Origin: Rubripirellula sp.
GTDB taxonomy: Bacteria; Planctomycetota; Planctomycetia; Pirellulales; Pirellulaceae
Assembly (NCBI GenBank): GCA_012270385.1
Contig: JAAXIK010000222.1
Span: 1 to 45,865 of the forward strand
Length of the DNA: 45,865 nt
Direction of reading: 5' to 3'
Part shown: positions 36,020 to 45,451 of the stretch, one piece after another
Layout: each line of letters begins with the position of its first letter
How positions within the stretch are numbered: the first letter of the stretch is position 1
Made by a program: the position numbers and the translations under genes
The notes under the pieces: model-generated
Database searches by the model: none
What the model was told of the DNA's origin: nothing
The model's input: only the letters and a program-made list of their open reading frames with translations

Positions 36020-36322
36020 CACTGCTCTCCACAATAAGATCTACACAGCCAACAATAGGTTAACAAACAACTCAGCGAGATAAGACAGCTAGAATCACTC
36101 GCAACAGTAAAAAATCCAGTACTTTCGATTCGCCAAGAAATGGATGTAGCCCAAACCGATATGCATCAGTAAAGGTTCTTGAATCGTCACCGCAAAAAAC
36201 TCTGCGGATAGCAGCTTCCACCGTGACGGATTCAAGCGTAGAAGTGGGTGGTAGAGCCTCACAGCGGACAAGTTAAACTAGATTTAGGATCTGATTTTTT
36301 ACGTGAACGAAAGACTAATATT
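36020..36322. other. Divergent intergenic region
   Basis: About 300 bp separate the antiporter and the endonuclease/phosphatase gene. GGAGAG for the antiporter is at 36025-36030. CCGCA and TGCGG near 36191-36208 can form a 5-bp stem. No promoter could be assigned with confidence. Confidence 0.4.
36025..36030 (-). promoter_or_regulatory. Shine-Dalgarno site of the antiporter gene
   Basis: GGAGAG on the minus strand lies five bases before the ATG at 36019 and decides that start over the TTG at 36034. Confidence 0.65.
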
Positions 36323-37273
36323 GTGAAATCAAAGATGATCATCCTTTGCGTCAACGTGCTACTGCTTGGCTTGTTTTCACTTGACTTGCAAGCTCAGAAT
36401 GAAGGCGCGAAAACGATCAGAGTCATGACCTTCAATCTCTGGCGAGGTGGATTAAACGGTGGTCAACCACTGGAGCAATCAATTAAAGCCATTGAGCTCG
36501 CTCAAGCAGACATAGTTGGCCTGCAGGAAACTCATCATGGTGATATTGATAACGGCAAGAAGATAGCAGCAAAACTTGGATGGCACTATTTTCAGCAGGG
36601 CGGCAGAACAGCAGTACTGAGTCGGTACCCAATCGTGGGATCAACAACCAGAAAATGGGGTGTGAGGATTCAACTCCCTTCGAAGACGACACTGCATTTT
36701 TTTAATGCACACTTTCCCGCCTCACCGTATCAACCTTATCAGATTCTTAAGATCCCCTACGGAGACGCTCCATTCATTTCAACCTCCCACCAGGCGGTCG
36801 AATGGGCTCTGAAATCCCGCGGAGCTCAAGTGGATAGTCTGCTTCAAGAGCTAATCCCGACTCTTCAAGCGAAGGAACCAGTGGTTTTAACTGGTGATTT
36901 CAATGAACCTTCTTTTCAAGATTGGACGCAAAAAGCGGCTGATAAAAAACTCGTTCCGCTCGCTGTACCCTACCCCACCACCAAACAGATCAGCGAAGCA
37001 GGTATGAGGGATACCTACCGAACCATTCACCCGGATGAAATAAAAGAACGAGGTCATACCTGGACGAATACAACCACACCTGAGGATCCAAATGATTTTC
37101 ACGACAGAATTGACTTTGTCTTCGTGAAAAATCTAACAGTGCAAAATGCTCAAGTAGTAGGTGAATCGACTGACAATGCTGATATTGTCCTGACACCATG
37201 GCCGTCCGATCATCGCGGTGTAGTTGCTAAAGTGGCTATCACCCTGAATGATGATTCCTTCTCGATTGATTAA
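36323..37273 (+). CDS. Exported endonuclease/exonuclease/phosphatase-family protein
   Basis: The product (about 317 residues) has the EEP fold shared by DNase I, AP endonucleases, sphingomyelinases and inositol phosphatases. The catalytic blocks are visible: MTFNLWRGG at the start of the domain, GLQETHH with the metal Glu, ALSR-type segment TAVLSRYP, VVLTGDFNEPSF with the Asp-Asn pair, and TPWPSDHRGVVA with the final Asp-His. A signal peptide (MIILCVNVLLLGLFSLDLQAQ) precedes it, so it acts outside the cytoplasm. The GTG at 36323 (MKSKMIIL) gives a basic n-region; the ATG at 36335 is an equal alternative. The frame from 36248 is probably too long. Whether it is a nuclease or a phosphodiesterase cannot be told. 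Confidence 0.85.
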   Translation: MKSKMIILCVNVLLLGLFSLDLQAQNEGAKTIRVMTFNLWRGGLNGGQPLEQSIKAIELAQADIVGLQETHHGDIDNGKKIAAKLGWHYFQQGGRTAVLSRYPIVGSTTRKWGVRIQLPSKTTLHFFNAHFPASPYQPYQILKIPYGDAPFISTSHQAVEWALKSRGAQVDSLLQELIPTLQAKEPVVLTGDFNEPSFQDWTQKAADKKLVPLAVPYPTTKQISEAGMRDTYRTIHPDEIKERGHTWTNTTTPEDPNDFHDRIDFVFVKNLTVQNAQVVGESTDNADIVLTPWPSDHRGVVAKVAITLNDDSFSID

Positions 37274-37306: not shown

Positions 37307-38011
37307 CTAAGGCATCTGATAGATATCCTCCGCTCGCTGAAATAATATCCATGACGTCACGATATACTTATCACTCGATTTGGGTATCGCTCCCTTGTGG
37401 GTATGGGTGAAACCAGCAGGTGCGATCACCATCCTTCCAATCTTCGGAGAGATGGATTGGTTCTGATAAAAGAATTCAGTCTGCCCACCGTCACTTACGG
37501 TATTCAGGAAAAACATAAAAAGTAAAACGCGATGCAAGGATTCACAGCTCGAATCCTGTGGGTAGATTTCTGAGTGCCAATGATGGTAACCACCGCTAAG
37601 CTGCCGATACTTCTGAAGATTCAGGTATCCCGGTCTGTAGAAGCGCAGCACAATAGCCCGCAATTGATCATCCGGAACACGGTGAATATTTTCCGGGGAC
37701 AGCTCAACCACTTCGCCCTTATCAATCTCAATTGTCGGTGCAAGTGCACCACAAACCAGAAAAGGATGCTGACGCACATATTGCGTAAGCTTGGCTGCTG
37801 TAACGTTCAAAAGTTGCTGACTGATCTCTGTCCATTCCTGATATTCTGAGATACAGCAATCAATTGAATCTTTCTTATTCGGATCTACCCCGGAACCTAC
37901 TTGACCAGGCGTGTGCACTTGAGGGAATGATTCAAATGTTTGGATGATTTTCTCGCAGAAGTCTGGATTCAATGCATCATCAAAGACACCGATCAACTGG
38001 TTTTCTTTCAT
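37307..38011 (-). CDS. 2OG-Fe(II) oxygenase, prolyl-hydroxylase-like
   Basis: The 234-residue product is a cytoplasmic-looking 2-oxoglutarate/Fe(II) dioxygenase. The iron site is His146 and Glu148 in YHHWHSEIYP and the distal His in PAGFTHTHKG (His203 or His205), with the 2OG-binding basic residue expected near KYIVTSW. The first acidic ligand is Glu rather than the more usual Asp; I recall WHxE in a cyanophage and bacterial prolyl-4-hydroxylase-like subgroup, so this may be normal. FLNTVSDGGQTEFFYQ is also typical of that subgroup. It stands alone, convergent with the EEP gene. Substrate is unknown; a peptidyl proline or small molecule are both possible. Confidence 0.85.
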   Translation of the reverse strand: MKENQLIGVFDDALNPDFCEKIIQTFESFPQVHTPGQVGSGVDPNKKDSIDCCISEYQEWTEISQQLLNVTAAKLTQYVRQHPFLVCGALAPTIEIDKGEVVELSPENIHRVPDDQLRAIVLRFYRPGYLNLQKYRQLSGGYHHWHSEIYPQDSSCESLHRVLLFMFFLNTVSDGGQTEFFYQNQSISPKIGRMVIAPAGFTHTHKGAIPKSSDKYIVTSWILFQRAEDIYQMP

Positions 38012-38154: not shown

Positions 38155-41100
38155 TTATTCTGATAGCTCATCTTTCAGGTGATGAAACAACCTGTCAACA
38201 GATGCAGTGGTATCAGTATCAGAGCGAAGAAACGAAACCAGACTCGATATTGACTCGTTTCGCGCTATACTTAATTCACTCATGATCGAGTCAACGATTG
38301 AATTGAGTTGACCAAGCTTTGAATTTCCCCATACTCCTTGGGTTTGACTCGCCTCACCCTCCCCGATCGTACCGAAGTTCATTAAAGAACCCAGATTAGA
38401 GGTGGGAATTGAATTCAAGAACTGTAGATCGAAGTCTGATCCCGTAAAGGTACGCTGCTCCGCATTGGGGCTGCTTTGCAATGCAAATCCAGTATTCTGA
38501 TTGGAAACACCCAACAGCACACCCGCTTCCATCGCGAGAACGCCAACCACCTCAGTAGTGTGGCCCAGCTCCGAATCACGAGAGCCTTCCTCTTCAACGA
38601 ATACTGTAACACTCGTGGACGTTTGCGAACGATGGCGAACTGTCGCTGCATCGCGGCCATCTCTTGTTTGCATATCGCTAAGGACCACTGGATTCACTGC
38701 ACCGTCGATACTGCCGAAATTAATTGTTGAATTCCGGTGCGTTACCGTATTACCAGTCTTCAACGCATTGAGGGAGATATTTCCGCTGGTTGCAATCCCT
38801 GTATCAATAGCAACAAAGCCAACTTGTTCGGTACCATGAAGGCGATCAGCAGCTTCTTCTTCATTTAATTGAATCTGAAAATCTTCGGTGCTGACATTAC
38901 GAATTCTTTCGGTAACTGCCGCTGGATCGTTGTTGGTCATCACTTGGCTGATGATCAAAGGAGGGGTTACGAAAGTGGTCCCGAAGGCGGTGGTTCGGAA
39001 AGATTCGTTCGTCAGATCCACACTACCGGCAACCAAATTTGTACCGTCAGTCAAACGATGAACTCCAGCTTCCATCACTAAGAATCCGATATCTTCCGTT
39101 GTGTGCCTACCATCTCGGTAATCCCACTCTTGAAATCGAATTTGAAAACTGTTGTTAGTCACACTGCGAACTCGAACAACACCTTGATGTCCGCCATCTC
39201 TTGTCGCACCTCCAGCGACAACAACAGGATTCACAAAATCATTCGGGAGGTTAATGGTTTTCCAAACATGCGTTACATCGATCGCCGTACCTGCGTAACC
39301 AATGACTTGTTCGCTAGTGGTGACCTCGGTCACGGTAACACGGACCGTGGCGGTGTCGGTCGCAGAACCATCGCTAACCACGTAGGTAAACGAGTCACTG
39401 CCAAAGAAGCCCGCATTGGGGGTGTATGTCACCGTCCCATTGCCATTGTTCACCACACTGCCATTCGATGCTGTGCCGACGCTTTCAATCGAAAGACTAT
39501 CTCCATCGATATCCGTATCGTTGGCGACCAGGCTGATCGTGACAGCTACATCCTCTTCGGTGGTAGCCGAATCGTCGTTCGCTACTGGATTGTCATTTAC
39601 CGCTGTAACGGTCACGCTCACCGTCGCTGTGTCCGTCAGTCCCGTACCATCATTAATCGTGTAAGTGAATGAGTCGCTGCCGTTAAAATTAGCACTCGGC
39701 GTGTAAACCAGATTGCTACCGCTGATCACCACGCTGCCATTTGTACCCTGGGTGAATGACTCGATCGTCAGAGTATCCCCATCAGCATCACTGTCATTGG
39801 ATAATACAGCTACCGACACCTCGCTATCCTCAGCAACTGTAGCGGTGTCATCTACCGCTACTGGGGCGTTGGTGACCTCGGTCACGGTAACACGGACCGT
39901 GGCGGTGTCGGTCGCAGAACCATCGCTAACCACGTAGGTAAACGAGTCACTGCCAAAGAAGCCCGCATTGGGGGTGTATGTCACCGTCCCATTGCCATTG
40001 TTCACCACACTGCCATTCGATGCTGTGCCGACGCTTTCAATCGAAAGACTATCTCCATCGATATCCGTATCGTTGGCGACCAGGCTGATCGTGACAGCTA
40101 CATCCTCTTCGGTGGTAGCCGAATCGTCGTTCGCTACTGGATTGTCATTTACCGCTGTAACGGTCACGCTCACCGTCGCTGTGTCCGTCAGTCCCGTACC
40201 ATCATTAATCGTGTAAGTGAATGAGTCGCTGCCGTTAAAATTAGCACTCGGCGTGTAAACCAGATTGCTACCGCTGATCACCACGCTGCCATTTGTACCC
40301 TGGGTGAATGACTCGATCGTCAGAGTATCCCCATCAGCATCACTGTCATTGGATAATACAGCTACCGACACCTCGCTATCCTCAGCAACTGTAGCGGTGT
40401 CATCTACCGCTACTGGGGCGTTTCCTTGATTACCGCTCGTCTTAATTAGGTCCATCGCGGCCCCGAGATCCAAGACGCCGTCACCAACAAGGTTCAAATG
40501 TTCCGGACGCGCCGTACTCAGCATTGCATCCTTGATGTCTAAGTAACTGAGCTCAGGACGCTCAGCCCACAACAATGCTGCTGCTCCTGCAACGTGCGGA
40601 GCGGCCATTGAAGTCCCAGAACTGTATACATACCCACCGTTTGTATAAGTGCTACCAATCTGGGTGCCCGGTGCCGCAATTTGAACGGATTCAGTTCCCC
40701 AATGTGAGTAGCTGGCGAAACTTCCATCAGAATCGGTGGCGGCGACAGTGATCACGTTGTCGTGAACCTTACTTAATTCCGCGGGCCATGAATTGAAACT
40801 ACCATCCATGTTTGACGCAGGAATTGTCGAACGTGAATTCCCAGCAGCAACCACATAAAGCACTCCAGCGTCTTTAGCTCGCCCAACTGCATTAGAAATG
40901 GTCTGTGAACCACCCACATTCGAGCCGGCATAGCCATAGCTATTATTTGTGATCTTTGCCCCATTATCCGTAGCGTAATCAATGGCTCTCGCAACGTCAG
41001 CGTTGCTACCGGTCCCAATCACTTTCAGCGCCATCAAACTTGCATTCCAGCCCACACCCGTCACACCGATGGAATTGTTTCCTCTTGCTCCGATCGTGCC

Positions 41101-41769
41101 TGCAACATGCGTCCCGTGACCATTATCGTCACGTGGATCCGGATCTTCGTTATCGAAGTCATAGCCGAAGAAATCATCGACGTATCCATTGCCATCGTCA
41201 TCGATCCCGTTCCCTGCTATCTCATCTGAATTCGTCCACATGTTGTCAACTAAGTCAGGATGATCATATTCGACACCTGAATCAATCACACCCACGATAA
41301 TCGAACTACTATCGGTCCTCGTGTCCCAAGCGGTCTCGGCATTGATATCAGGCAGACCCCACAAAACCCCATAAAACTGATCATTCGGTACCGCAGCAGC
41401 CTGCATGCGATAGTTGGGCTCGGCAAAATCAACAAGATCGAGTCCGTTGTAATGGCGAACAAGTTCTTCAACTGACTGCCCCGGTAATACTGGCATTTCC
41501 CACAATTGAGAATCTGAACGAAATCCCTGTCCCAACGGTGCATTTAAGACCGCTGATCTTTCAGTTGGCAAATCCGTGCCACTCCACATCTTCAAAGAGT
41601 CAACTTTGACATCGTCCCTGAACCGCACAAGAACCTCAGTATGGGTGTAGTCGGACGCTTCTAAGAGACTGAAGTCAATAAAGTGGGCCGCTAGTAGGTG
41701 TCTCTTTTCTAACTGCTCAAAGCGTCGCGTGGTTCGCCTTCGGGAACGGAATCTAAGTCTGCCAATCAT
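38155..41769 (-). CDS. Secreted S8 (subtilisin) protease with cadherin-like tandem repeats
   Basis: The 1204-residue product begins with a basic segment and an LEPR-like motif (RFEQLEKRHLLAA, residues 16-28) known at the N-terminus of planctomycete surface proteins. A propeptide-like region (about 40-130) leads to the S8 domain with Asp163 (GVIDSGVEYDHPD), His218 (NGHGTHVAG), Asn311 and Ser387 (SGTSMAAPHVAG); the triad is complete. Residues 450-817 are four Ig/cadherin-like domains (VAVDDTATVAEDS, SDSFTYTINDGTG) made of two identical 184-residue units. Residues 825-1110 hold three further repeats ending in HTTEDIGFLVMEAG-like strands. The ribosome site AGGTAGAGG precedes the ATG. It is probably a large cell-surface or extracellular protease. 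Confidence 0.93.
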   Translation of the reverse strand: MIGRLRFRSRRRTTRRFEQLEKRHLLAAHFIDFSLLEASDYTHTEVLVRFRDDVKVDSLKMWSGTDLPTERSAVLNAPLGQGFRSDSQLWEMPVLPGQSVEELVRHYNGLDLVDFAEPNYRMQAAAVPNDQFYGVLWGLPDINAETAWDTRTDSSSIIVGVIDSGVEYDHPDLVDNMWTNSDEIAGNGIDDDGNGYVDDFFGYDFDNEDPDPRDDNGHGTHVAGTIGARGNNSIGVTGVGWNASLMALKVIGTGSNADVARAIDYATDNGAKITNNSYGYAGSNVGGSQTISNAVGRAKDAGVLYVVAAGNSRSTIPASNMDGSFNSWPAELSKVHDNVITVAATDSDGSFASYSHWGTESVQIAAPGTQIGSTYTNGGYVYSSGTSMAAPHVAGAAALLWAERPELSYLDIKDAMLSTARPEHLNLVGDGVLDLGAAMDLIKTSGNQGNAPVAVDDTATVAEDSEVSVAVLSNDSDADGDTLTIESFTQGTNGSVVISGSNLVYTPSANFNGSDSFTYTINDGTGLTDTATVSVTVTAVNDNPVANDDSATTEEDVAVTISLVANDTDIDGDSLSIESVGTASNGSVVNNGNGTVTYTPNAGFFGSDSFTYVVSDGSATDTATVRVTVTEVTNAPVAVDDTATVAEDSEVSVAVLSNDSDADGDTLTIESFTQGTNGSVVISGSNLVYTPSANFNGSDSFTYTINDGTGLTDTATVSVTVTAVNDNPVANDDSATTEEDVAVTISLVANDTDIDGDSLSIESVGTASNGSVVNNGNGTVTYTPNAGFFGSDSFTYVVSDGSATDTATVRVTVTEVTTSEQVIGYAGTAIDVTHVWKTINLPNDFVNPVVVAGGATRDGGHQGVVRVRSVTNNSFQIRFQEWDYRDGRHTTEDIGFLVMEAGVHRLTDGTNLVAGSVDLTNESFRTTAFGTTFVTPPLIISQVMTNNDPAAVTERIRNVSTEDFQIQLNEEEAADRLHGTEQVGFVAIDTGIATSGNISLNALKTGNTVTHRNSTINFGSIDGAVNPVVLSDMQTRDGRDAATVRHRSQTSTSVTVFVEEEGSRDSELGHTTEVVGVLAMEAGVLLGVSNQNTGFALQSSPNAEQRTFTGSDFDLQFLNSIPTSNLGSLMNFGTIGEGEASQTQGVWGNSKLGQLNSIVDSIMSELSIARNESISSLVSFLRSDTDTTASVDRLFHHLKDELSE
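39319..39870 (-). repeat. 552-bp direct repeat, copy 2 in gene order
   Basis: This unit is identical by eye to 39871-40422 over its full 552 bp, equal to 184 codons and so in frame. It encodes residues 634-817 of the S8 protease, with two Ig/cadherin-like domains. Confidence 0.9.
39871..40422 (-). repeat. 552-bp direct repeat, copy 1 in gene order
   Basis: This unit encodes residues 450-633 of the S8 protease and is directly abutted to its twin with no spacer. No substitution was seen between copies, including at third codon positions. Confidence 0.9.
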
Positions 41770-42384: not shown

Positions 42385-43500
42385 TCACTGTTTGGCCGCA
42401 TTCACTTTCGCTGCCATCAGTCGCCGCCAAAATTCACGGTCAAACGCAGCAGTGCTAACGCTCCTAGGGTCGACGCCGAGCCTTTCAACGTCCCAAGCCT
42501 GCCTGGTAGACACGAAGATTCTCCGACCGAGATATCCTTTGGCTGAAGCCGTTCCAGCAGGAGCATCCGTGGGCCGTTCTGAGTGATTCAACCACCAAAG
42601 ATAGCCATAGTTGGGCTTCAACCTTTGCGATGCCTTCAGCGATGCAACACGAAATCGATCATCCGGTATCACTTTTTTTCCCTGCCAATTCCCCTGTGCT
42701 TGCATCAATAAACCAATACGCGCCAAATCGCGCGCACTGGACGCGAAACCAAATGCATTCAATGCGGTAATCGACTTCGCGCGGGGAATCCACTCCGACT
42801 CAGTCATCCCTATTGGGTCCATCAACCACTTCCGAGTGAGCTCATGAACCGACATTCCCGAAGATACAACAAGACAATCACGTACCACTGCATAAGCAGC
42901 CGTGTTGTAAAACCATTGCGTTCCCGGCTTTGCCTGAAAATGCAAGTCGGCAGTCAGACCACTCGTCATGGATAACAGATGTTTTATCTTGATTTCAGCT
43001 TCCTGCGCCGGTGCTGCGTTGGACCATCCCACGCCTAAGTGCTTTGAGACAGAATCCTCAATCTGCAACAGTTTTTTGTGGACGGCAACGCCCACTAGAA
43101 TCGAAACAATGCTCTTCTGAACCGAAGCGACATCTTCGATGGCTTGTTGTCGGTCATTTAATCTGACGAACATACGTCGATACCCTCCACTGGTCGCCCC
43201 GGATACTTTGCCCCAGTGTTTCTCCGCAAGGATCCTTCCTTGCCACAAAATCAAGACACTACTCGAACGCTGTTCACCTACCCAATCCAATAAAGCGTTA
43301 AGCCGTGATTGATTCCAACCCGCCACCTCGGCGTCTACGGTCTCCCACTGCCCCTGCTTACCTGGAAAGTAAAGATTTAAAGCAACAGCTGTTTCCAAAT
43401 TCCCCGTGTCAGGGGCCTGCCCTAAAATATTCCCGGATGATGAAACGGCTCCGAAAATGACGGCGAATAGAGAGCAATGCACTAGAGGTAATGTTTGCAT
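42385..43500 (-). CDS. Exported beta-lactamase-family serine hydrolase
   Basis: The 371-residue product is a class C beta-lactamase/esterase-type serine hydrolase. The nucleophile motif SxxK is Ser126-Val-Gln-Lys129 (DVASVQKSIVSIL), HLLSMTSGL is the usual following block, and the second catalytic element is YNTAAY with Tyr198. A signal peptide (SLFAVIFGAVSSSGNILGQA) leads the protein, so it is exported. The ATG at 43500 is chosen over that at 43554 because GAGG (43507-43510) lies six bases upstream of it. Most such proteins in bacteria are esterases, peptidases or transacylases rather than antibiotic-resistance enzymes, and nothing here indicates resistance. Confidence 0.87.
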   Translation of the reverse strand: MQTLPLVHCSLFAVIFGAVSSSGNILGQAPDTGNLETAVALNLYFPGKQGQWETVDAEVAGWNQSRLNALLDWVGEQRSSSVLILWQGRILAEKHWGKVSGATSGGYRRMFVRLNDRQQAIEDVASVQKSIVSILVGVAVHKKLLQIEDSVSKHLGVGWSNAAPAQEAEIKIKHLLSMTSGLTADLHFQAKPGTQWFYNTAAYAVVRDCLVVSSGMSVHELTRKWLMDPIGMTESEWIPRAKSITALNAFGFASSARDLARIGLLMQAQGNWQGKKVIPDDRFRVASLKASQRLKPNYGYLWWLNHSERPTDAPAGTASAKGYLGRRIFVSTRQAWDVERLGVDPRSVSTAAFDREFWRRLMAAKVNAAKQ

Positions 43501-43960
43501 CGGTAACCTCACGAATGGACAACGACCGGAGGGAAGCGTTAGCTTTATGAACACATACTCGAGAGACGCTTTTCAAAATACAATAGTTGCACCATTAAAG
43601 GTTACCCATAATCATCGCATAGGTCCAAAAGGATCACGAACACACCGTATGGGTATTCCATTCCGAAAGTGTGTAGACAGACTTCTTCTGCCCTGAACTA
43701 GAAAAGTCGCTTGGCTGGTATCGGATTATCGTGACTACCGCCCCCGTAAGTCCACACATCTCTCCGAAACTCGACACTTTTTGCATTTTCGAATCAATCT
43801 GATTTCCCTGCAGGATCTACTGCTGGAGAAACACCTGAACGGAAGCGAGAATGATACGATGAACCGTTCAATACCTGGCCCCCTTTTGAATCAGAGGGGC
43901 ACGAAAGCTTTTGGAGTTGTGCTCATCATGCTTGCGAGGAACGAATTGGAACGGTTTAAC
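43501..43960. other. Divergent intergenic region
   Basis: These 460 bp lie between the serine hydrolase and the FG-GAP pseudogene. Open frames starting at 43554 (minus) and 43781 (plus) are N-terminal extensions that lack family support. GAGG at 43507-43510 belongs to the hydrolase gene. No further feature was recognised. Confidence 0.4.
43507..43510 (-). promoter_or_regulatory. Shine-Dalgarno site of the serine hydrolase gene
   Basis: GAGG on the minus strand lies six bases before the ATG at 43500 and favours that start, which also begins directly at the signal peptide. Confidence 0.6.
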
Positions 43961-45451
43961 ATGAAGAGTCAAGCTGTCAGAAGTTTCAACAAATCGACGT
44001 TGTTAGGCCTCACTTTGCTGCTCATCAGCACCCTCAAGGTCACGGTGACTCATGCACAATTCACAGATGTAAGCGAAACACTTGGGTTCTCAGGTGGCGG
44101 AAAAGCCGCGTTTGCCGACTATGATGGTGACGGATGGGTAGACTTATTTGCGGGTCAACTCTTCCATAACGAGCACGGAAACCGATTCAGTCCAGTGGCC
44201 GAAAGTGGGTTGCCTGGTGGCGAAGCAATTTGGGGTGACTTCGATAACGATAGTCTACCTGATCTGTTTTTCTTCACTGGCGGTGGTGGACTTTACCGCA
44301 ATGTCGGTGCCGGCAAATTCGAACAGGTCGAATTCCCAGCACTGCCAACGGTCAACTCGAGAGGCGGCATCTGGAGCGACTTTAACTTAGATGGCCGGCT
44401 GGATCTGTTCGTAGGAGGCTATGAAGTCTAGCAGAAAAAGGTGCACCCAGACGTAATCTCTCTCAATCAACCCGACGGAACATTCAAGGAAGCATGGCGT
44501 TCATCATAGTGAGCTTGTTATTCGGCTCGCGGTGTCGTTGCTGCCGACCTGAACGAAGATGGAAAAATTGATGTTTATGTTTCCAATTACCGGTTACAGC
44601 CAAACCATCTTTGGCTCAACCAAGGTGGCGGAAATTTCGAAGAGGTTGCAGAAACCGTTGGTGCTGCGGGGATCGGAGATGGCGGAACCATCACTTACAC
44701 AGGCGGCATTCAATATCGTGTCTTCGGCCACACCATCGGCTCTGCTTTGGGTGACCTAGATAATGACGGGCACATCGATATCTTTGTCGGTAACTTCAGT
44801 CATCCAAGGGTAGGACAAGATCATCCCCAGTTTTTGCGGAACCTTATAACCGAGGGTGAAATCAAGTTTGAAGATAGATCGGAGGGGTCCGGACTAGAGT
44901 GGCAGGAGTCGTTCGCTTCGGCGGCCTTGGGTGACTACGACAACGACGGCGATCTCGATCTTTACTTCACAACCGTCTATGCCGTTGGAAGTGGTAGTAT
45001 CAAGAATTTTCCAGTCCTCTATTCCAATCAAGGCTCGTGGAAATTTAAGAATACGACCAAGGATGAATCACTTCCAGATCTGCCTCCTACCTATCAGTCC
45101 GCGTGGGCAGATATTGATAATGATGGTGATCTCGACTTATGCACTGCAGGAAAACTCTTTCGGAACGACGCTCAACGAGGCCATTGGATTCAGTTGCAAC
45201 TTGTTGGTAATGGAACCGAAGTCAGTCGATCAGCATTTGGCGCTGTCGCGCGGAAACAGCTTGGGGATCAAGTGCGGACCCGCATTGTAAAGCCGGGAAC
45301 AGGAGAGGGAAATCAGAGTGATGCTCGACTGCACTTTGGATTAGGAGATCAAGAAGAACCTGTCTTGGTGGAAATCACTTGGCCCGGAGGAAAACAACAG
45401 ACAGTTGGGTCTTTAGCTGTCGATCAACAGCATCGCGTTGTCATGGAATAG
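43961..45451 (+). pseudogene. FG-GAP/VCBS and ASPIC/UnbV (CRTAC1-like) protein gene with three in-frame stops
   Basis: The gene would encode a secreted protein of about 496 codons. A signal peptide (STLLGLTLLLISTLKVTVTHA) leads into FG-GAP-type calcium-binding loops (FADYDGDGWVDLFAG, WGDFDNDSLPDLFFF, LNEDGKIDVYVSN, LGDLDNDGHIDIFVG, LGDYDNDGDLDLYFT). The C-terminus is an ASPIC/UnbV domain (GHWIQLQLVGNGTE to ITWPGGKQQTV). Translation in the same frame is interrupted by TAG at 44429-44431 and TAG-TGA at 44507-44512, with no frame change, and the coding signal is continuous on both sides. The first stop sits where relatives usually have Trp (GYEV then W). A sequencing error cannot be excluded, but three stops make decay by point mutation likelier. 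Two fragments could be expressed, the second from the ATG at 44747. Confidence 0.85.

Follow-up and report, generated by a model that had tools for sequence, protein, structure and literature searches.

Several groups of repeat proteins are close enough to the gene described here to serve as points of reference. Periscope proteins, such as SasG, Rib, Sgo_0707 and CdrA, are encoded by long, nearly identical DNA repeats that specify a rod of folded domains, and two accounts (PMC8201768, PMC9704523) describe this rod as setting the distance of a functional N-terminal domain while the number of repeats varies. Proteins with tandem-95 (NF012211), Big_9 or Cadherin_5 domains form a second group. Furthermore, a survey of 24 proteomes by Bjorklund and colleagues (PMC1553488) indicates that two domains at a time are the commonest duplication unit in general, and that domain repeats are mainly eukaryotic.

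Here we analyse a window of 45,865 nucleotides, which is one entire contig (C325) from the draft genome of an uncultured planctomycete (5.1 Mb, 553 contigs, 89.9% complete). It carries a putative S8 protease gene with a perfect, abutting 552-bp duplication, and our literature searches found no paper on this protease gene. The Periscope hallmark of repeats longer than 50 residues with very high coding identity is found here in the 184-residue unit, whose DNA copies are identical, and not in its single domains A and B, which share 41% protein identity and 48.6% DNA identity. As to a monomeric rod that would project a functional domain from the cell, the array is predicted as a chain of four cadherin-like domains (pLDDT 83, pTM 0.48) that is matched by cadherin rods. 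Unlike Periscope proteins, however, the window protein has a protease as its N-terminal part, its repeat is a two-domain A-B unit with dissimilar neighbours and just two copies, we identified no surface anchor, and the variation observed is between species. We do not file this protein as a member of the group, although it may be comparable in part to a short Periscope protein.

The resemblance to proteins of the tandem-95, Big_9 and Cadherin_5 kind lies in the domains themselves, as all four in the window score above the model cut-offs. Matches to NF012211 occurred in 13 of 14 searched genomes at E 0.001, and exceeded the cut-off of the model in three of the 14. In contrast to the window, none of these arrays or the other loci examined contains a perfect abutting duplication of a unit longer than 200 bp, although the majority are draft assemblies, in which such events may go unseen. 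As in the multi-domain expansions treated in PMC1553488, two domains were duplicated together, but the event in the window is bacterial and has accumulated zero base changes since. Overall, it looks like an ordinary domain-repeat duplication, similar to those already known in other bacteria.

Domain architecture of the protease

The features of the gene and its neighbour are as follows.

38155-41769, minus strand: S8 protease gene, 1204 amino acids; the product carries a cadherin-like array in the order A-B-A-B and ends in a lectin-like region (open reading frame list and translation; Pfam and NCBIfam; 11 full-length orthologues)
41689-41712, minus strand: N-terminal LEKRHLLA (translation; same place in orthologues)
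40498-41307, minus strand: catalytic domain of the peptidase S8 (subtilase) family, covering residues 155-424 (PF00082 at 196 bits, cut-off 21.8; translation)
39871-40422, minus strand: repeat unit, first in coding order, domains A1 and B1, residues 450-633 (identity at lag 552; 100% match in the own-genome search)
39319-39870, minus strand: repeat unit, second in coding order, domains A2 and B2, residues 634-817 (identity at lag 552; own-genome search)
38476-39312, minus strand: beta-rich C-terminal part, about 280 residues long, with weak similarity to H-type lectins
37307-38011, minus strand: 2OG-Fe(II) oxygenase gene, constant neighbour downstream of the protease gene (PF13640, 35.1 bits against 27)

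The translation contains VGVIDSG, GHGTHVAG and GTSMAAPHVAG, which we take to be the Asp, His and Ser motifs that mark the S8 family, and the PF00082 match places the repeat inside an S8 protease gene, as the sequence-only reading had proposed. At the N-terminus, a basic stretch precedes LEKRHLLA, a sequence similar to the planctomycetal export motif LEPRxLL; orthologues have, for example, LERRNLLA (L033) and LEPRHLLA (L041) in this position. The protein is probably exported and would work outside the cell. It had earlier been described as a surface protease; export is likely, whereas no anchor was identified that would speak for a surface location.

The array domains follow the order A-B-A-B, with domain starts 92 residues apart. 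They match Cadherin_5 above its cut-off, tandem-95 (NF012211) with 320.7 bits against a cut-off of 90 and Big_9 (PF17963) with 338.8 bits against 23.6, the latter two in four stretches each. An AlphaFold2 model of residues 440-1100 from 12 aligned sequences shows chained beta domains at pLDDT 83.0, so that four cadherin-like domains in a chain are predicted, with an uncertain inter-domain arrangement given the pTM of 0.48. Structural matches include cadherin ectodomains (7sz8_B, Z 14.0, rmsd 13.3, 355 aligned residues). A tetra-tandem repeat from an extending RTX adhesin is also among the top array matches (6xi1_AAA, Z 13.5, rmsd 14.1, 347 aligned residues). Chains of similar domains that bend differently would be expected to give rmsd values as large as these. 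Fold-search matches were dominated by the cadherin-like part, with Foldseek TM-scores of 0.12-0.25, and in a sequence comparison with the PDB the unit matched an RTX protein (36gk, E 8.6e-7). On this model, the array may be a rod-like spacer between the catalytic domain and the lectin-like end.

For this end of the protein, the H-type lectin model (H_lectin, PF09458) gave 19.9 bits, below its gathering score of 24. No sequence match was found in the PDB up to E 1, and the single row returned from NCBIfam lies far below its cut-off. The region is 69-73% identical to the same region of the 11 orthologues. Their catalytic regions are 79-86% identical to that of the window and their array units 59-71%, and therefore the rod evolves faster than the enzyme.

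A perfect repeat of one two-domain module in the assembly

Base-by-base comparison at lag 552 yields a single uninterrupted identical run of 553 bases that starts at 39318. The repeated stretch, 39318-40422, thus comprises two abutting 552-bp units with no differences plus one shared junction base, and identity ends sharply at both sides. The earlier claim that the copies are identical even at third positions holds exactly, and the span then given, 39319-40422, is one of two equivalent phasings of the same repeat. The reading frame is kept across the repeat, again as previously claimed, because 552 is 3 x 184. What had gone unremarked is that 184 residues correspond to two domains at 92-residue spacing. 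A single unit coincides exactly with an A-B module, its two breakpoints lying in inter-domain linkers.

A repeat search returned a 300-nt pair at a spacing of 552, and a tandem-repeat program missed the duplication because its longest period is 500. Searching the genome with the unit gave two match sites, both in this repeat. A chance origin is ruled out by length and exactness. With zero changes at 137 synonymous sites, the 95% upper bound on the proportion of synonymous differences (pS) between the copies is 0.022.

Both the copy number and the perfect identity rest on one draft assembly (553 contigs) of this species. The true module number could therefore differ from that assembled, or similar but non-identical modules could have been merged as identical. 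One review considers short reads unable to resolve such repeats accurately (PMC9704523), and another attributes assembly errors to tandem repeats and warns that they are often put together wrongly (PMC6868369). However, the B-to-A junction is in frame and in domain phase, with a linker like that of the orthologue L038. Such a junction should rarely arise from a chance mis-join, and therefore at least two modules probably exist. Two modules are also present in seven of the 11 orthologues, the stretch contains zero N, and the contig ends showed no match elsewhere in the genome in an overlap comparison, although this last point is weak evidence. Consequently, we consider it rather unlikely that the repeat is an effect of assembly.

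Module number and copy divergence among orthologues

A scan that covered each species by one genome gave 364 relatives. We retained 78 loci, and 11 of these are near full-length orthologues (L033-L043). Their records are labelled Mariniblastus sp., Pirellulaceae bacterium or Planctomycetaceae bacterium, and all are metagenome-assembled. As each species is represented by one genome, every comparison below is between species. The sequence-only reading had suggested that copy number could vary between strains; between species the module number does vary. Four orthologues have one A-B module (L039, L041, L042 and L043) and seven have two (L033-L038 and L040). The one-module genes L041, L042 and L043 also have a different C-terminal tail containing HELGH, which we take to resemble the zinc motif of metalloproteases.

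The two copies differ at no synonymous site in the window, and pS between copies is saturated at 0.69-0.78 in all seven two-module orthologues. None of the 11 orthologue genes contains an exact repeat of at least 25 nt at lags of 30 to 2500, and no two-module gene with intermediate divergence was found among them. By the divergence of its copies, the duplication in the window appears to be the newest among the orthologues. The sequence-only reading had named diverged copies in related strains as counter-evidence; diverged copies were observed here in other species, at 66-71% identity, which does not refute it.

A tree of the units separates the copies of six species by position, with first copies together and second copies together, each with support of 100/99. 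The duplication therefore predates those species, and no homogenisation has followed. Within this group, the sister species L035 and L040 differ from each other by pS of 0.12 in the first copies and 0.19 in the second, and their copies are still distinct by position. The copies of L038 instead fall with the single unit of L039 (100/99), and the first L038 unit groups with that of L039 (91/72). L038 may therefore share its duplication with the one-module L039, in which case L039 may have lost a module, or the tree may be noisy there.

Approximately unbiased (AU) tests rejected the placement of the L038 copies by position with the six-species copies (p 8.5e-5 and 7.7e-6), although these p values are weakened because the groups were picked after the tree was seen. 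Not rejected were the union of the two L038 copies (p 0.32), the union of all twelve six-species units, which would place the duplication inside the group and is not the best tree (p 0.18), and the joining of the window unit to either six-species set (p 0.25 and 0.17). As the tests reject a single duplication common to L038 and the six species, whose copies have all diverged, the module has doubled more than once. On these trees at least two doublings would fall among the orthologues, with a third in the window lineage if its copies are new. The AU tests do not fix the place of the window unit, and one A-B module is the most likely earlier number in this lineage.

Origin of the repeat

The sequence-only reading had offered two options for the perfect identity, a very recent duplication or active gene conversion. 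The first fits better, because pS is bounded at 0.022 here while the copies are saturated in all seven two-module orthologues. The second is not favoured, because L035 and L040 kept position-specific copies as they drifted apart.

A related scenario is that gene conversion or unequal crossing-over lately made the modules of an older A-B-A-B array identical. In a core tree the window protein forms a long branch (0.32). In favour of this scenario, seven of the 11 orthologues have two modules, and one of them, L038, belongs to the clade nearest to the window protein (100/100). Moreover, the high repeat identity of Periscope proteins is proposed to accompany homologous recombination, according to one review (PMC9704523). 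But the same clade also contains the one-module L039, and the edges of the repeat lack the diverged margin that homogenisation might leave. Given that the copies of sister species stay distinct by position, habitual gene conversion is unlikely, and the absence of homogenisation from all seven two-module orthologues further favours a recent duplication. We find the homogenisation scenario quite improbable, and the copies in the window would be new instead of converted.

We think it likely that a recent in-frame domain duplication lengthened the rod-like spacer of an exported S8 protease from two to four domains. Under this proposal, until recently the rod in the window lineage most likely held one A-B module. 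This module would then have been copied in frame by a tandem duplication whose breakpoints lay in the linker preceding A and the linker following B, with one junction base in common, to give the A-B-A-B rod. That the overlap at the junction is a single base suggests illegitimate recombination and not an exchange between long repeats. Like duplications would have occurred on separate occasions in related lineages, so that the spacer grows by two-domain steps and the cadherin-like rod holds the catalytic domain apart from the lectin-like end. Spacer length may be the property that selection sees.

Periodicity in other domain arrays

In 67 further loci, exact direct repeats of at least 100 nt at lags below 6000 were found in 13. 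The longest were 638 nt at lag 2190 (L096) and 512 nt at lag 3972 (L088); neither pair abuts. A set of 34 fetched stretches, which partly duplicates the records of earlier loci, included four with such repeats at lags below 3000, and one locus (L145) has a perfect tandem array with a 100-bp unit ahead of its array gene. The longest exact run in the 29 loci L004-L032 is 129 nt at lag 576, in L007.

Across 84 arrays of at least four domains, the highest mean identity was between domains two apart in 45, between neighbours in 34 and between domains three apart in five. This count leaves out six loci that duplicate other records as well as the window and its 11 orthologue loci; before these exclusions, with lags 1 to 4 compared, the 103 arrays divided into 54 for two apart, 32 for neighbours, seven for three apart and 10 for four apart. 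When only arrays of at least six domains were considered (n=56), identity at two apart exceeded that of neighbours in 31. Relative to shuffled domain order, a clear two-apart signal was present in 10 of these 56 and a neighbour signal (p <0.01) in 15. Some of the loci are related to one another. Two-domain periodicity is thus a tendency and not a rule, and two-domain steps are common here.

One genome that consists of a single contig (G215) has an eight-domain array whose most similar domains lie two positions from each other. Its exact runs at lag 558, the length of two domains, measure 143 and 122 nt. The same genome includes a 1229-codon frame on the minus strand (L130) in which the lectin-like region occurs twice in tandem, at 61% and 60% identity to that of the window, and in which the same search gave no S8 match. 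That region therefore also duplicates as a block.

Gene neighbourhood and distribution

The oxygenase gene begins about 143 bp downstream of the protease gene in the window. A match to it adjoins the protease gene in all 11 orthologue loci, with 61-70% identity and a start 105-151 bp past the end of the protease frame. Its product is weakly related to prolyl 4-hydroxylases (3itq, E 0.0039). We also observed a second S8 gene after the oxygenase gene in some loci: a close paralogue in L034 (from 12712; 81% in the catalytic domain) and distant paralogues (42%) in L033 (from 5211), L036, L037 and L040 (from about 12690).

A speculative extension, which we hold to be very doubtful, is that the two genes form a cassette in which the protease sits on a rod of tunable length that gains and loses A-B modules by two-domain steps, and in which the oxygenase hydroxylates residues of the protease, its rod or its substrate. 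If true, rod length would be a heritable setting for the reach of the protease from its anchor.

The protease gene is rare, with matches in 13 of 241 genomes of the family at E 1e-120, and in six of 396 genomes drawn from the order at 1e-150, the source genome included. Because the gene is absent from the 21 other genomes of the same genus at E 1e-120 and occurs mainly in one other genus, a mis-binned or chimeric contig was considered. Flanking genes and tetranucleotide make-up argue otherwise, and we do not favour this possibility. A left-flank gene has its best matches in the genus of the window, at 69-71% (G015, G006 and G019), as does the right-flank gene at 42385-43554 (top match G005, 69%), and the protease and oxygenase pair therefore sits in a native contig. 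Tetranucleotide correlation with the first 30 kb is 0.857 for 30-36 kb and 0.849 for 36-45.8 kb; bins within the first 30 kb reach 0.956-0.966, values that are inflated because these bins are part of the reference.

Further right in the window, a gene on the plus strand at 43961-45451 (FG-GAP/ASPIC-UnbV) is interrupted by three in-frame stops, although its frame stays open on both sides of them, and represents either a pseudogene or sequence errors. The gene at 36248-37273 is closer to other genera (best 65%) than to its own (45%), and therefore gene gain or loss near the protease is likely. Two genomes of the genus (G006 and G015) share the gene order of the window up to a Na+/H+ antiporter gene, and about 10 kb past it gave no match to the protease, the oxygenase or the three other right-hand genes tested at E 1e-10. 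Separate parts of the protease, mostly its array and its lectin-like end, are related to sequences in the same genus, for example at 59% in G012 (residues 445-838) and 47% in G001 (residues 822-1086). Gain of the protease and oxygenase pair by transfer and its loss from sister lineages both fit these data.

Implications

A draft genome by itself is not a reliable basis for counting modules in genes of this type. Provided that the assembly is correct, the window has caught the expansion of a domain array at its start, before mutation has set in, beside relatives that carry an older doubling or none. The locus would then offer a natural series for studying the evolution of spacer length, and the reasons why arrays often expand by two unlike domains at once.
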